From contig CANQEJ010000004.1 in NCBI GenBank assembly GCA_947594925.1, positions 1 through 50,083 on the forward strand: a stretch of DNA of 50,083 nucleotides. Direction: 5' to 3'. The translations under genes were made by a program, and so were the position numbers. This stretch comes from an uncultured Bacilli bacterium. GTDB taxonomy: Bacteria; Bacillota_I; Bacilli_A; RF39; UBA660. Every line of letters starts with the position of its first letter. Positions within the stretch are counted from its first letter, which is position 1. The notes under the pieces are model-generated. The model saw nothing but the letters and a program-made list of their open reading frames with translations, had not been told where the DNA came from and ran no database searches. Below are positions 8,796 to 50,083 of the stretch, piece by piece.

Positions 8796-9185
8796 TAATG
8801 CAGAAATAAACATATAAGCAATGGCTAAACCAAAGGAAACTGTAGAGCCAATAATGAAAGCTGCTGTAATAAAACCATTTGGTTTATATACTAAAGGAGT
8901 ACCACCATCTTCTTCTATAGTAGAAGCATAAATAGGATTAATTATTGAAGATAAATTTTTGTCATAGTTATCAATAACTTTAGCTTGCGCAGAATTTAAT
9001 TTATCAGCTGGTAAAGATTTTAACATTTTACAATATATTTGATATTCTTGAAATGTTTTAAAATTTTTATCATTTAAATAATGTTGTTTTTCATTAGCTT
9101 CGTTCATTAAAGTAATAAATTCTGTAACATCTAAGGAAAATTCATTATTATCAATTTTATGAGTAAATTCTTGAAAAGAAATCAT
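8793..9185 (-). CDS. Unknown small protein with a C-terminal membrane anchor
   Basis: The 130-residue product is a soluble, mainly helical N-terminal part followed by one hydrophobic segment near the end (FITAAFIIGSTVSFGLAIAY), so it is probably a tail-anchored membrane protein. I do not recognise a family. Its ATG follows the TAA of the gene at 9186-9437 with no gap (TAAATG), so translation of the two is probably coupled. The pair is transcribed away from the phase-variable surface gene and towards spoVS. Confidence 0.7.
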   Translation of the reverse strand: MISFQEFTHKIDNNEFSLDVTEFITLMNEANEKQHYLNDKNFKTFQEYQIYCKMLKSLPADKLNSAQAKVIDNYDKNLSSIINPIYASTIEEDGGTPLVYKPNGFITAAFIIGSTVSFGLAIAYMFISAL

Positions 9186-9437
9186 TTAAACACCTTCTTC
9201 ATTACTATTGTAAATAAGAGCATTTAATTTTATAACATCAAATAAATCTTTGGCGCTCATATTACTAATATCCAATTTTAATTGATAACTTTCAAAAATA
9301 GTTTCTAAATTAAAATTGCCTAAGTTTATTTTATTATTATCTAATTCTAAAATATTATTATTAATAGATATTTTTTTAAATTCGGAGTTATTTTGTTGGA
9401 TAACTTTTAAAACGACTTCATTAATACGACCAATCAT
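9186..9437 (-). CDS. Unknown small protein
   Basis: The 83-residue soluble product is rich in Asn, Ile and Leu and has no recognisable motif. The start is supported by TAGGAGT about eight bases ahead of the ATG and by a 17-bp-spaced promoter further upstream. It is the first gene of a two-gene unit with the tail-anchored protein at 8793-9185. Function unknown; the arrangement suggests a soluble partner of the anchored protein. Confidence 0.65.
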   Translation of the reverse strand: MIGRINEVVLKVIQQNNSEFKKISINNNILELDNNKINLGNFNLETIFESYQLKLDISNMSAKDLFDVIKLNALIYNSNEEGV

Positions 9438-9463
9438 AATATCAAACTCCTATTCTAATAATT

Positions 9464-9492
9464 ATTTTACTAAATTATCATCTTTTTGTCTA
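9464..9492 (-). promoter_or_regulatory. Promoter of the minus-strand two-gene unit
   Basis: Read on the minus strand, TAGACA (9492-9487), a 17-bp spacer and TAAAAT (9469-9464) precede the AGGAG site of the 83-residue gene. It is back to back with the poly-G promoter some 55 bp away. Confidence 0.55.
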
Positions 9493-9524
9493 TTGGGTTT
9501 TCTTTTTTTCTTTTTCGTGCAAAA

Positions 9525-9567
9525 ATGTCAACCAAAAACTTTCTGCTTTACAACAAACCGGGGGGGG
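9525..9567 (+). repeat. 43-bp direct repeat, copy 1 (phase-variable promoter cassette)
   Basis: These 43 bases, from ATGTCAACC through the -35 box to the eighth G of the poly-G run, are identical to 50041-50083 at the right edge of the window. The base just before the repeat differs (A here, C there), so the visible left limit is sharp. About 21 bp upstream of the -35 is conserved too, more than a bare promoter needs. Confidence 0.95.
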
Positions 9568-9574
9568 GTATAAT
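9547..9574 (+). promoter_or_regulatory. Promoter with a G9 slippage tract in its spacer
   Basis: TTTACA (9547-9552) and a perfect TATAAT (9569-9574) are separated by 16 bp that end in nine consecutive G (9560-9568). Single-base changes in the run would alter the spacer to 15, 17 or more, and so change promoter strength. Long G runs slip during replication, which is the known basis of phase variation for several bacterial surface genes. Transcription would start near 9581 and lead to the surface protein at 9610. Confidence 0.85.
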
Positions 9575-9609
9575 AGACTTAGATGTAAAGATAGGAAGGA
9601 ATAAATGTA

Positions 9610-11319
9610 ATGAAGGAAAGAAAACGTAAAATAACAACAATAACTATAATAGGAATAATGTTGATACTTGCAATAACAACATTTACTTATGCTATATGGA
9701 GTAGGACACATATTCAAACAGGAATAAATAAAAATACATATGCTTGTTTTGATATTAGTTATGAAGAAACAAATGGACAGGGAATAACTATGGAAAATGG
9801 TTTTCCTCAAAAAGATGAACAAGGTATGCAAAATGACCCATATGAAGTACAAATAGAAAATACATGTGATACAGTAACTTCATATAATGTAATACTAAAT
9901 AAAGAGCATAGTTCTGATTTAGCTGATGAACATTTAAAAATAGCTGTAGATAACGATTATAAATTATTATCTGCAGCAACTCAAACTGCTAAGAGAACAA
10001 TCCAAGATTTCACTAATGAAGCATCATACATAATAGGGACAGGAGTAGTAGGACCAAAACAAACAAAGACTGTCCAAATAAGAAGTTGGATGGATGAAAA
10101 GACATCTGAACAAGATGGAGAAAATAAAAGTTTTACTTTTAAGATTACTATTGAAAATGTTGTAGGAATAAACGGTGAAATACCTTTAAAAGATATGATA
10201 TTAGCTGCTCAGCCTATTAATGATGAAATAACAGATTTTTCTTTTGTTTTAAGTGATTGGAAAGAGAAAGAAGTTAATATTGATGCATCTAAAGGAATAT
10301 GTGTTGTGCAAGATTATAATGACATAGAGTGGAATGAAATAGATTATTTTACTTTTTATAATAAAGGTGTTTGTAATGTTAAAGATGTAGAAAATTATGT
10401 AAATTGGTATACATTTGGTAATGATATGCAAAATAGTAGTTCGGGAATTTATAGAATAAAGGAAGTAAATGAGACTACTATTACTAAAGTAGATTATCAA
10501 ACATATGTGCCAAAAGAAAAAGATGGACTGGTTAAAGCCCAAGATGACGATGGAACAAGTTATATTTATCGAGGAGTAATAAACAATAACTATATATCTT
10601 TTGCCAATAAATTATGGAGAATTGTTCGTATCAATGGTGATGGTAGTATCAGAATTATTGCTGATGAACAAATAGGAAAAAGTAAATTTAATAATGAATA
10701 TCAGGGGCAGAAATATGTTGGTTACACCTATGATAATAGTGAACATTGCACAAATGATAATCCATGTAAAAGTGAATATAATGGTTCAGCCACTTTTAAA
10801 AAATCTAATGACTGGGTTGATAGTGTTGTTAAAACATACTTAGAAAATTGGTATTATGAAAATTTAAAAGAAAATGATGATGAAATTGTTTTAACCACTT
10901 TCTGCAATGATACTACAATTGGTAATACGTATAGTTGGGGTATAACATATGGGGCGGGAGAAAGAATTGAGAAAAATAATACAGCAATGTTAAAATGTCC
11001 CGATACTGATAAAGACTATGGAGGAGTATATAAATTAAAAATTGGTTTGATTACAGCCGATGAACTATTATATGCAGCTATTCCTTATCGTCCTATTGAC
11101 GCAATTAAAGGTAATTATCTGCTTCATAATTATCAATGGTGGACAATGACCCCAGCGGCAATATCAAATAATGAAACTTATATTTATTATGGTTACGGTA
11201 CTTCAAGTGAAGATGATTATGCTACAGATTTATTTGAAATATATCCAGTTATCAACCTAAAATCAGACGTAACCGTAACGGGTGCCGGAACACAAGATAA
11301 TCCATATGTTGTACAATAA
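9610..11319 (+). CDS. Predicted phase-variable surface protein (SipW-type signal, TasA/camelysin-like N-terminus)
   Basis: The 569-residue product begins with a basic stretch and a membrane segment ending in TFTYAIWSRTHIQTG, resembling SipW-dependent signal sequences of TasA/camelysin-like proteins. Residues about 40-180 look like the matching beta-sandwich (FDISYEETNG, DPYEVQIENTCDT). The second half has wording common in surface proteins of gut Firmicutes: ANKLWRIVRINGDGSIRI, WWTMTP and the ending YPVINLKSDVTVTG...NPYVVQ, similar to DUF6273-type domains. There is no LPxTG sorting signal. The ATG at 9610 has GGAAGGA upstream. Expression is probably controlled by the poly-G promoter. The exact role (adhesin, fibre subunit or decoy antigen) is not known. 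Confidence 0.85.
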   Translation: MKERKRKITTITIIGIMLILAITTFTYAIWSRTHIQTGINKNTYACFDISYEETNGQGITMENGFPQKDEQGMQNDPYEVQIENTCDTVTSYNVILNKEHSSDLADEHLKIAVDNDYKLLSAATQTAKRTIQDFTNEASYIIGTGVVGPKQTKTVQIRSWMDEKTSEQDGENKSFTFKITIENVVGINGEIPLKDMILAAQPINDEITDFSFVLSDWKEKEVNIDASKGICVVQDYNDIEWNEIDYFTFYNKGVCNVKDVENYVNWYTFGNDMQNSSSGIYRIKEVNETTITKVDYQTYVPKEKDGLVKAQDDDGTSYIYRGVINNNYISFANKLWRIVRINGDGSIRIIADEQIGKSKFNNEYQGQKYVGYTYDNSEHCTNDNPCKSEYNGSATFKKSNDWVDSVVKTYLENWYYENLKENDDEIVLTTFCNDTTIGNTYSWGITYGAGERIEKNNTAMLKCPDTDKDYGGVYKLKIGLITADELLYAAIPYRPIDAIKGNYLLHNYQWWTMTPAAISNNETYIYYGYGTSSEDDYATDLFEIYPVINLKSDVTVTGAGTQDNPYVVQ

Positions 11320-11324
11320 TAAGT

Positions 11325-11442
11325 TATAAACGCGGAAGCGTTTATATAAATAGAAAGAGAAACTTTACCTTCGTTATGTAAGTATTCCTATTGTTTCTTT
11401 TTCTAATTAAGGAAGATAATTGTTTATATTATCTTCTTTTTA
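11325..11442 (+). terminator. Three successive hairpins, the last two terminator-like
   Basis: Right after the surface gene come: a 9-bp stem TATAAACGC/GCGTTTATA (11325-11346) with a GGAA tetraloop but no T run; a long-looped inverted repeat AGAAAGAGAAAC/GTTTCTTTTTCT (11352-11404); and GAAGATAAT/ATTATCTTC (11412-11436) with a T tail. Together they should isolate the switched gene from the T4SS operon. The remaining bases to 11595 hold no gene; TATACT at 11556-11561 is the best, but weak, candidate for the operon's -10 box. Confidence 0.65.
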
Positions 11443-11595
11443 ACTATATAGGAAAAAATGAAAGTTTTAAATGATAATTTTAATTAGAAAAGTAGCACTC
11501 ATAAAATCCCAAGTCAAATTATGAATATTTAATGTTCAAATCTTGAAATTTATGTTATACTTTTATAGTAGGTTAATAGTAAGTTAGGTGATATC

Positions 11596-12558
11596 GTGAA
11601 AAAAATGATAATATCTGTTCTTTTAATTAGTATAGTTTTTTTAAGCTTTACACCATCAGTATCTGCTGATACCACTTGTTTCTATAATAGTAGTGAAAGA
11701 AGTGGGGGATATTATGAATACGGTGAACTTACTATTAAAGACCCTTCTAATTCAAATGCTAAAGCTTCTTTTCAAAATTTGATGGGGCCAAAACTTGATT
11801 GCAGTGGTTGGGCAGATGCGGGAGTTTACGGAGCATGTGTTTTAACTTTCTTTATTGGTTGTGGCATTGCAGCAAATTTGTGGGCTGATAATATGTGTAG
11901 TTTTAGGGCTAATGATTTAAAAACGAACGATTTAAAAGATTATTCTTCAGCCGCTAGTAAAAATCTTAATACTAAATTATCATATATTGATGCTCAAGGA
12001 AAAAAACAAAGTGTAAATCTTCCTAATACTAATTTAGGCTCTGAGTGTCCTGAATATTTAGGTGTTGTTATTAGCGACTCTAGTGATGCATCTAATGTTC
12101 AAGTTTTTGCAGGAGATAGCAGTACAAAGAATTTTATTGATAATTATATAAATAGTAATCCTGATTATAATTATGTTATTTGGGGTTCAGAATTTGAAAG
12201 AACTGGCCATGATAGTTCAGATGGCAGTGGTGGGGGGTCTTCTCAAGATGACAGTAATTTAAATACATGTGTAGGTGTTTTAGGGAATAAAGTTAATGGA
12301 GAATATGAAAGTGGAAGTGTAGGGGCTTTATTACAACAGATTTTTGATTATATGAAAATGGCTGCTGTAATTTTAGTTTTTGTTTTTTCAGTAATCGATT
12401 ATGCTAAAGCAATTGCTGCCCAAAATGCTGATGCTTTTAAAAAAGCTAATGTTAATTTATTAAAAAGAATTATATTTGGTATTGTATTCTTCTTGATACC
12501 AACTTTAGTAAATCTTATTTTAAGTGTTATAGATTCTTCTACTTGTGGTATACAATAG
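11596..12558 (+). CDS. Signal-peptide protein with a VirB2/TrbC-like C-terminal pair of membrane helices
   Basis: The 320-residue product starts at GTG (11596) with AGGTGAT in front. It has a signal peptide (MIISVLLISIVFLSF, cut near VSA), an ectodomain with many cysteines and a Gly/Ser-rich linker (about residues 205-220), then two hydrophobic segments around a short basic loop (MAAVILVFVFSVIDYAKA and IIFGIVFFLIPTLVNLILS). That helix pair is the shape of VirB2/TrbC pilins, but the protein is about three times the usual pilin length because of the ectodomain. It opens the T4SS operon and lies 15 bp before the VirB6-like gene. The pilin assignment rests on position and topology. Confidence 0.7.
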   Translation: MKKMIISVLLISIVFLSFTPSVSADTTCFYNSSERSGGYYEYGELTIKDPSNSNAKASFQNLMGPKLDCSGWADAGVYGACVLTFFIGCGIAANLWADNMCSFRANDLKTNDLKDYSSAASKNLNTKLSYIDAQGKKQSVNLPNTNLGSECPEYLGVVISDSSDASNVQVFAGDSSTKNFIDNYINSNPDYNYVIWGSEFERTGHDSSDGSGGGSSQDDSNLNTCVGVLGNKVNGEYESGSVGALLQQIFDYMKMAAVILVFVFSVIDYAKAIAAQNADAFKKANVNLLKRIIFGIVFFLIPTLVNLILSVIDSSTCGIQ

Positions 12559-12573
12559 TTTGTAGGTGAGATA

Positions 12574-15147
12574 ATGAATTTAATTGATGTCGGTCAAGTT
12601 TGGGATGTTATTAATGGTTTATTTGTAACTATTGATTCCGTAATTTATAAATTTGTTGGCTGGTTATATGAATTATATATATTAATTAGTAGTGCCAGAA
12701 TATTCCAAACAGAAACTTTTGAATTATTTATAAATCGTATATATGTTATTTTAGGGGTTATTATGCTATTTTTCTTGGCATATACGATTTTAAAAAATAT
12801 TGCCGACCCAGATTCATTTGCTAAAGGTGAAAGCTCAATGGGAAAAATTATTTCCAACACCGTTATTTCTTTAGTTCTTATTGCTATCTTACCAACAATT
12901 TTTACTTTTTTATATCATGCTCAAGAAATTTTATTAAAAGAAAATATAATTGGAAGATTAATTTTAGGAAATTATTCGACTGCTTCAGAGACTTTACAAT
13001 TAACTTTTGAAGAAGATGTTTGTAATAATTTGAATACTTTAAAAGGCGATGGAAAATATACAGTTACTAATGGGACTTGTACAATTAGCTGGGAAGGTAA
13101 AAATACATCTAGTACAGTTGATTTAGCCGGAAATGCTATTGCTGTTGATATATTTACGGCCTTTTACTATCCGTATTTAACTGAGGGTGAAAATAGTGAG
13201 TATGAAGCAATGGAAGATGCTGCTAGAGCTCAAGCTGAAGCTTTAGGTGAGGACCCAGAATCATTTGTTAATAGTAATCAATTTTATAATGCGGATTTTC
13301 ATTATGACGAGTGGGAAGATGACCATCATAGTATGAACGCTAAAGAAGATTTTTTATATTCCAAAATAGCTAGTTATGACGCTTGTCATAATATGGCGGA
13401 TGGATATGTTTATGGTCCAACTGCTTCAGCTTGCGCTGCGGAAATGCTTGTTAATAATAAATTAAATAATCTTAGTAATGATATGCTACCTTTAAACTTT
13501 AAATCTGTAATGCAGTATGCTAAAACTACAGGGGATTTTAGTGGATTTAAATTACTTTCTAATTTTGTTTATGAAGACCGTATTCAATATTCTCTTATTA
13601 TATCTACGGCAGCTGGTTTGTTTGTTTGCTATATTTTTATTTCATATTGTATTGATATGGGTCTTAGAGCAGCAAAATTAGGTTTTGCCCAATTAGTTGC
13701 ACCGGTGCCAATACTTGCTCGTATTGTGCCATCTCAAAAGAAGATGTTTGATAGCTGGACTAAATTTACTTTGAGGTCTTATTTTGAAGTATTTGTCCGA
13801 ATTGCTATTATATTTTTAGGAATATTTATGATAACCCATTTGCCTAATGTTCAGGATATGTGGGCAGATTCAATCTTTGCTAATATTACCTTTATGTCTA
13901 TTAAAGGACCACTTATAATGGATATTAGTTCTGCTTCTTGGGGAACTAAATCTATTGCTCGTGTTGCTGTTATTATTGGTATTTTAATGTTTGTTAAACA
14001 AGCACCGAAATTAATTTCCGATGCTCTAGGCATTAGTATTAATACCGGTTCATTAAATATTCGCAACAAGTTAAAAGATATGGTAGGTGGCGAACACGTA
14101 GTCAGAGGTTTAAATGCGGTTGGAGCTCTTCCTGGCCGAGGTATTGGAGCTATTAAAGGTGGCCTTGGTAGTATGTGGGCAGCCAATGTTCATGGTAACG
14201 GTAAAGTACCTTTGAAAACAGCCTTTGCGCATGGTATGAAACAAGGCTGGAAAAATCCGAAGAAGAGCTTTAATAAGAACTTTAGAGAAACTTATGGTGA
14301 TATCACCGGAGATGTTAAGTCTAAACCTTCATTAATTAACGAAGGACCAACACTTGCAAGTCGAGTAACTAATAAAATTGATAAAGATTACAAAAAGGCG
14401 GTTGGAAAAGGATATACTGCTGAACTTGAAAAAGATGTTGCTAATTTTGAAGCAACTGACCCAAGATTTACAAGAGCTATTGAAGCTAAACGTAGTGAAT
14501 ATCGCGAAAAAATTAGAGAAGTTCAAAACAGTGAACAATTTAAAAATATTAAACAATCTGAACGTACTCGTCTAGAAAGAGAATTCCAAGACAATGAAGG
14601 TTCGCGTATTGCTAAACGTATGAAAGATTATGAGGATAGTCAGGAATATCGTTATGCTAGAACAATGGCTTATCGTAGAGCTGAAACGGAAGTTCGGGAG
14701 GAAGCAGCTAGAAATGGTGAAACTTTAAATGCTATGGAAATTCAAGAAAGAGCAAGACGCAAGGAAACCGATTATTTAATTGATAGTTTGAAACAAATGA
14801 ATTCCGAAAATGCTCGTCAATATATGAAAGATAAAGACCGTCGTGATAATATTGCTCAAGAACTTGACCGTAAAGCTAATGAAAATGCTATTAACTCTAT
14901 GAGACAATCTAATGTTGAATATAGAAAAGCTTTAGAAAATGTTAATAATACTACTGCTATTAGAGCAGAAGTTACAGAAAATGTTAGAAGAGAAATTACA
15001 GCTAATCCAACATCAGCAGCCGATTCTCGTTATGTTCGTAACTTAGATGAACTTGAAAATAAAGGTAAGATTACTCGTAAGAAAGAATTTGAAGATAACT
15101 GGACAGATTTATGGAACAAAACTTACAATGAAAAGAATAAGAAGTAG
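12574..15147 (+). CDS. VirB6/TrbL-like polytopic channel protein of the T4SS
   Basis: VirB6/TrbL proteins form the inner-membrane channel core of type IV secretion machines. This 857-residue product has several membrane helices in its first 490 residues (for example YVILGVIMLFFLAYTILKNI and IAIIFLGIFMITHL), with an extracytoplasmic region between the second and third clusters. A short Gly-rich stretch follows, then about 350 charged residues rich in Arg, Glu, Lys and Asn that should form a cytoplasmic coiled coil. This large tail is not part of the minimal family and may contact the ATPases or substrates. It sits between the pilin candidate and PrgI, the standard order in Gram-positive systems. 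Confidence 0.8.
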   Translation: MNLIDVGQVWDVINGLFVTIDSVIYKFVGWLYELYILISSARIFQTETFELFINRIYVILGVIMLFFLAYTILKNIADPDSFAKGESSMGKIISNTVISLVLIAILPTIFTFLYHAQEILLKENIIGRLILGNYSTASETLQLTFEEDVCNNLNTLKGDGKYTVTNGTCTISWEGKNTSSTVDLAGNAIAVDIFTAFYYPYLTEGENSEYEAMEDAARAQAEALGEDPESFVNSNQFYNADFHYDEWEDDHHSMNAKEDFLYSKIASYDACHNMADGYVYGPTASACAAEMLVNNKLNNLSNDMLPLNFKSVMQYAKTTGDFSGFKLLSNFVYEDRIQYSLIISTAAGLFVCYIFISYCIDMGLRAAKLGFAQLVAPVPILARIVPSQKKMFDSWTKFTLRSYFEVFVRIAIIFLGIFMITHLPNVQDMWADSIFANITFMSIKGPLIMDISSASWGTKSIARVAVIIGILMFVKQAPKLISDALGISINTGSLNIRNKLKDMVGGEHVVRGLNAVGALPGRGIGAIKGGLGSMWAANVHGNGKVPLKTAFAHGMKQGWKNPKKSFNKNFRETYGDITGDVKSKPSLINEGPTLASRVTNKIDKDYKKAVGKGYTAELEKDVANFEATDPRFTRAIEAKRSEYREKIREVQNSEQFKNIKQSERTRLEREFQDNEGSRIAKRMKDYEDSQEYRYARTMAYRRAETEVREEAARNGETLNAMEIQERARRKETDYLIDSLKQMNSENARQYMKDKDRRDNIAQELDRKANENAINSMRQSNVEYRKALENVNNTTAIRAEVTENVRREITANPTSAADSRYVRNLDELENKGKITRKKEFEDNWTDLWNKTYNEKNKK

Positions 15148-15158
15148 GAGGTTAGTAT

Positions 15159-15470
15159 ATGAATAATTATTTGATACCGGCAAACTCGAAAAAGTCGCAA
15201 CTTATTTTAGGGTTCTTTAATAAGATTGATTTATTTGGAATATTTCTACCTGGTATAGGTTTGACGGTCTTTTTGCTTTTTGCTTTTAAATCTAATAATG
15301 TGATTATTACAGTTTTGGATTTACTACCGGCGCTAATTGCTGCTTTCCTTGTTATGCCGGTGCCAAATTATCATAATATGTTTACGCTTTTAAGTAATGT
15401 TCATACTTATTTTAGCCGTAGAAGAAAGTATTATTGGAGAGGATGGTGTGCAAATGGCAAAGACCACTAG
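15159..15470 (+). CDS. PrgI family (VirB3-like) T4SS protein
   Basis: The 103-residue product has the features of the PrgI family that precedes VirB4 in Gram-positive conjugation systems: an IPANSKKS start, two short membrane helices, the conserved MPVPNYHN motif, and the ending RRRKYYWRGW. PrgI is thought to play the part of VirB3, recruiting VirB4 to the membrane. A TAGGAGG site precedes the ATG. Its 3' end overlaps the start of the next gene by about 17 bases. Confidence 0.88.
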   Translation: MNNYLIPANSKKSQLILGFFNKIDLFGIFLPGIGLTVFLLFAFKSNNVIITVLDLLPALIAAFLVMPVPNYHNMFTLLSNVHTYFSRRRKYYWRGWCANGKDH

Positions 15471-49994: not shown

Positions 49995-49996
49995 TG

Positions 49997-50022
49997 AACA
50001 CTAAATTAATTAGTGTTTTTTT
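49997..50022 (+). terminator. Rho-independent terminator of pgsA
   Basis: AACACTAA (49997-50004) and TTAGTGTT (50010-50017) followed by T run. Confidence 0.8.
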
Positions 50023-50040: not shown

Positions 50041-50083
50041 ATGTCAACCAAAAACTTTCTGCTTTACAACAAACCGGGGGGGG
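50041..50083 (+). repeat. 43-bp direct repeat, copy 2, with start of another poly-G promoter
   Basis: Identical to 9525-9567. It contains TTTACA (50063-50068) and at least eight G (50076-50083), then the window ends within the G run. The -10 box and the gene it should drive lie beyond the edge. It follows the pgsA terminator, so it is again the beginning of a new transcription unit on the plus strand. Confidence 0.9.

Follow-up and report, generated by a model that had tools for sequence, protein, structure and literature searches.

A probable dispersed family of phase-variable promoters with G tracts in their spacers, ahead of surface-type protein genes in uncultured Bacilli

Described promoter switches and the site in the window

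In Mycoplasma hyorhinis, a reduced-genome relative of the Bacilli, the few vlp genes encode a surface protein family and carry poly-A tracts in their promoter spacers. The porA promoter of Neisseria meningitidis has a poly-G tract as its homopolymer, and going from 11G to 10G lowers the surface protein 2-fold, to 9G 13-fold (PMC3639595). The vlhA genes of Mycoplasma gallisepticum depend on a trinucleotide repeat instead: 12 GAA units accompany the active state and 8 GAA is the commonest number (PMC6258824).

The window analysed here is a stretch of 50,083 nucleotides. An earlier note on it had proposed a G9 slippage tract in a promoter spacer that would turn a surface protein on and off, and had read this promoter as a lone site. 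The arrangement it described, TTTACA, a 16-bp spacer ending in G9 and TATAAT, lies exactly at 9547-9574, where the pair of boxes gives the top promoter-like score (11 of 12) in the range 8800-11800. The spacer consists of ACAAACC followed by GGGGGGGGG (G9 at 9560-9568), and the start codon ATG is at 9610. The site is not single. Runs of at least eight G occur at two places only in the window, here and at its end (50076-50083), and the last 41 bases are a second copy, GTCAACCAAAAACTTTCTGCTTTACAACAAACC plus G8, with the contig stopping inside the G run. The features of the two sites are as follows.

9527-9559, plus strand: conserved upstream block of the cassette (GTCAACC...AAACC) with the -35 box inside it; conserved in the 14 complete own-genome copies with enough flank, with a sharp start at GTCAACC; 41 core copies
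9547-9552, plus strand: -35 box TTTACA; the same in all 28 complete copies because the search required it
9560-9568, plus strand: G9 tract, the proposed slippage switch; G7-G9 among complete copies, with near-identical flanks
9569-9574, plus strand: -10 box TATAAT, from the promoter scan
9575-9609, plus strand: conserved leader with ribosome-binding site AGGAAGG (9593-9599); near-invariant in all copies
9610-11319, plus strand: gene for a 569-aa mosaic surface-type protein with an N-terminal membrane helix, a beta-sandwich and a C-terminal DUF6273-like domain
11409-11439, plus strand: terminator-like hairpin followed by a T run (z -3.67), marking a single-gene unit
49996-50018, plus strand: terminator-like hairpin of the preceding gene (z -3.60), just 5' of the second cassette
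50043-50083, plus strand: second cassette copy, with TTTACA at 50063-50068 and G8 at 50076-50083, cut by the contig end

Folding analysis of the G tract with the leader gave no stable fold. Further 3' of the cassette unit, at 11596-15470, genes weakly resemble conjugative-element membrane proteins and the VirB4-like ATPase of mycoplasma integrative and conjugative elements.

How does this locus compare with the described systems? With porA it shares the position of the homopolymer, a poly-G run between the -35 and -10 boxes of a surface-protein promoter, but it belongs to another phylum and precedes an unrelated protein, it exists in about 40 dispersed copies where porA is one gene, and it is known from sequence. 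With vlhA it shares a multigene surface family in which each paralogue has its own repeat-bearing promoter, conserved flanks and shuffled sequence diversity. The vlhA repeat, however, is a GAA trinucleotide about 40 nt upstream of the start site rather than a G tract inside the spacer, and the vlhA genes are clustered and encode lipoproteins, whereas those considered here are mostly dispersed and their proteins are anchored by a membrane helix and lack a lipobox. The cassette family works like vlhA and, being without GAA repeats, is not a member of it. The difference from M. hyorhinis vlp lies in the base, poly-G instead of poly-A, and this in a genome of 26% GC. A literature search found no report of such a system in this lineage, which is weak evidence of absence. 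We propose, at a probability of roughly 0.8, that the cassettes form a dispersed family of phase-variable promoters, in which switching by spacer length as in porA is deployed at the multigene scale of vlhA.

The cassette family and its proteins in the host genome

The genome that carries the window (1.04 Mb; 58 contigs read, about 73 kb of it as N) contains 41 copies of a 22-nt cassette core, against 0 matches to a reversed control pattern. Thirteen copies end inside the tract and 28 are complete, with 3 at G7, 11 at G8 and 14 at G9 behind near-identical flanks, so that length varies where the surroundings are constant; these lengths were compared between paralogous copies rather than at one locus followed through time, and were read from a short-read-type assembly, which may put an exact length off by one. 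Conservation starts sharply at GTCAACC, about 20 bp 5' of the -35 box, spans the tract, the -10 box, the leader, the ribosome-binding site and the first ten codons, and drops beyond. The real unit is thus a dispersed promoter family and not one promoter. Runs of at least eight G or C number 45 in this genome where a first-order Markov model expects 1.3. On either strand, lengths of exactly 6 and 7 are less frequent than lengths of 8 and 9, which sets the long tracts apart as a class of their own rather than the far end of a chance distribution. The exact cassette occurs twice, with G8 and G9, in the rabbit metagenome-assembled genome (MAG) Lapin-007 bin28; in a search of 97 relatives it was confined to the host genome. 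Two other origins were considered and set aside: the genome encodes MutS, and loss of mismatch repair is therefore rejected as the cause of the long tracts, while a viral origin of the cassette was dropped for lack of any match in viral contigs. Two further tracts, G9 at C7:26320 and G8 at C22:6773, stand with promoter-like boxes before genes for two small helical proteins, neither of which has a Pfam match above the cut-off.

Every cassette with a readable gene drives one protein family. A search with the window protein returned 46 open reading frames in the genome, including fragments at contig ends and a few distant hits. The family comprises about 40 mosaic, paralogous, membrane-anchored beta-sheet proteins of surface type. 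Against the window protein, the other 25 full-length members in the alignment have 44-60% identity. How similar two members are in their N-terminal part says almost nothing about their similarity in the C-terminal part (correlation 0.09-0.15). In certain pairs, hundreds of bases are identical and adjoin diverged stretches, and the two patterns together mark the members as mosaics. In the predicted models a membrane helix at the N-terminus is followed by a beta-sandwich and a C-terminal domain. The whole protein, with its several domains, was uninformative in a fold search, but the C-terminal domain alone gave a clear result: its sole significant Foldseek match was PDB 9qa6 (E 3.6e-7, probability 1.00), the entry for the Thomasclavelia ramosa IgA protease, which contains an N-terminal DUF6273 domain (residues 31-322; PMC12402451). 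By sequence the window protein scores 16 bits against Pfam DUF6273, below the 23.5-bit cut-off, and has no match in the PDB; neither it nor any of the 26 members matches Pfam Peptidase_M73 (TasA/camelysin). Its C-terminal domain is a candidate DUF6273 domain; a peptidase domain, as in the protease, is absent. Binding of partners from the host or from other microbes by the C-terminal domain would be speculation. A family member at C13:23670 carries G10 within its coding region, with the parts on either side out of frame with each other at this tract length; this difference of frame may point to a translational switch beside the promoter switches.

Recurrence among relatives, spacer length and rival readings

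The comparison set comprised 243 genomes of the host's taxonomic family, together with a wider phylum-level sample in which the genomes used were of the same class only. G7 directly followed by TATAAT was found in 31 of the 243 genomes, up to 76 times per genome and with almost no matches to the reversed pattern; the fuller arrangement of TTGACA, G run and TATAAT was found in 36, spanning 31 genera, against one reversed-control match in all. It also occurs, more thinly and at low copy, in other families of the class (f21 and f18), often before lipoprotein-like or exported genes, which makes the promoter habit older or wider than one family. Comparison with related genomes, a check of the kind proposed in the earlier note, strongly supports the idea: the architecture recurs in dozens of genera, and in 13 genomes the same flanks stand with different G numbers. 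Flanking sequences are not the same from genus to genus, and the position of the tract varies (left, middle or right) in a spacer that measures 15-20 bp at 126 of the 142 listed sites in relatives. As the tract floats while the spacer stays within these bounds, spacer length is what is kept in range.

What stands behind these promoters in relatives is mostly exported or membrane-bound. The downstream genes encode type IV prepilin-like proteins, BspA-type leucine-rich repeat proteins, proteins with a Gp10-like tail domain, a camelysin-like protein and many unnamed exported proteins, with a few cytoplasmic products such as an ABC ATPase. An N-terminal hydrophobic segment (signal or membrane) is present in 72 of 85 distinct downstream genes against 251 of 858 host open reading frames (29%; p ~9e-24), by a simple hydropathy rule, with the 76-copy genome left out and one genome as background. 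That 76-copy relative (G205) has many of its G-tract promoters in tandem arrays about 1.0-1.1 kb apart, before an exported protein family different from the host's.

The spacer lengths depart from those of ordinary promoters. Where TTGACA/TATAAT pairs of the host genome lack a G run, 17 bp is the commonest spacer (10 of 21 pairs in the range 15-20 bp), so that the reference of about 17 bp assumed at the outset holds. Host cassettes have spacers of 13-16 bp and none of 17, and the sites in relatives are mostly at 18-20 bp with a mode of 19. At 17 bp there are only 8 of the 126 sites with spacers of 15-20 bp, against 10 of 21 ordinary pairs (p ~9e-6, a comparison of two sets from different genomes in which sites within a genome are not independent). 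The prediction that G10, with its 17-bp spacer, would be optimal is unconfirmed, given that no complete host copy is G10 and that 17 bp is under-represented in relatives. Either of two situations would lead to avoidance of 17 bp: most copies may be switched off or weak, or G-rich spacers may have a shifted optimum. The former is the natural reading, because in vlhA too the active repeat number differs from the most frequent one; the latter is the alternative, poly-G being under-wound in comparison with ordinary DNA.

A poly-C version of the spacer search gave 0 of 243 genomes against the 36 for G, and poly-C is rejected as an equal alternative. Of all the findings, this strict coding-strand rule of G and not C hints most strongly at more than the porA model, which does not predict it: slippage and spacer length alone are insufficient to explain why only G is used. 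We regard as possible, if rather unlikely, a lineage-specific promoter class in which the coding-strand G tract would act both as slippage switch and as directional element, with its optimum away from 17 bp and tens of copies per genome giving combinatorial surface variation in many genera of uncultured gut Bacilli. It is improbable that the tract marks a surface-gene regulon as a directional element, recognised by a transcription factor, contacted by a sigma factor or acting through DNA shape, with its small variation in length incidental. The strand rule, the functional class formed by the targets and the spacer mode of 19 rather than 17 favour such an element, but it should not float across the spacer and adjoin different flanks in different genera, and a fixed binding site is not expected to vary in length behind identical flanks. 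Still less credit is due to the view that promoter and leader are alike only through recent spread of the family by duplication and recombination, with the G tract hitch-hiking and without a role. Promoter, leader and first codons are indeed far more conserved than the coding region, and the members are mosaics; the view is nevertheless largely refuted by recurrence in unrelated contexts, as unrelated genes in dozens of other genera have the same arrangement with unrelated flanks and two more members of the family in the host genome itself (contigs C11 and C17) have a different G9 promoter, TTGCAA...TATAAT. Finally, that the tracts or their variation are artefacts of sequencing or assembly is hardly credible: the assembly is fragmented, and often at cassettes, but the tracts turn up again in MAGs named independently and across dozens of genera, where they sit at promoter-like positions and reversed-pattern controls are near zero, so that their presence is not in doubt.

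Proposed mechanism, its implications and the assembly evidence

Phase-variable promoters remain our preferred reading: a real system of porA type, present across the lineage and enlarged to a multigene family. It rests on the architecture, the copy number, the variable tract between constant flanks, the recurrence in many genera and the enrichment of exported and membrane proteins. RNA polymerase would contact TTTACA and TATAAT as a sigma-A-type promoter. The G tract would gain or lose G by slipped-strand mispairing, each step shifting the spacer by one base and so raising or lowering transcription of the single downstream gene; the supposed on/off response may in fact be graded, as in porA. 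Since each of about 40 mosaic paralogues carries its own tract, a population would mix cells with different combinations of presumably exposed surface proteins, with a putative benefit such as evading IgA, phages or predators. Comparison thus lends strong support to the slippage-tract architecture of the surface-protein promoter, while the switching and its effect on transcription we infer from it. The presence of MutS, the fact that C runs never replace G runs and the lack of any host copy at 17 bp count against this reading. Judged by sequence comparison, the mechanism is a probable one for uncultured reduced-genome Bacilli.

What would be the implications of such a system? Random surface switching is best known from pathogens, for example Neisseria and Mycoplasma. 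If the reading is true, uncultured minimal-genome gut bacteria spend about 40 dispersed promoters per Mb, and 76 in one relative, on it. Restriction to G and avoidance of 17 bp, moreover, offer a way into promoter mechanics, with the sequence and the length of a spacer acting together.

The assembly itself bears on tract length in the sampled population. Its contigs overlap by 77 bases, as a de Bruijn assembler leaves them, and in 13 of them a unique 5' flank leads into the tract, where the contig stops. Forks within the tract are seen at three 77-base joins: the last 77-mer of one contig, running from unique flank to G8, is the first 77-mer of another, and the base after G8 is G at two of these joins and T at one. 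Because a join normally stays open only when there is more than one continuation, G8 and longer tracts are both probable behind the same unique flank. This suggests mixed tract lengths in the sampled population; stutter during library preparation could also give forks. Of the 110 contig ends examined in the host genome, 31 fall within the cassette and 14 inside a G tract. Assemblies accordingly tend to break at the surface genes behind the cassette and to lose them, and the cassette accounts for this technical nuisance in genomes of the lineage.
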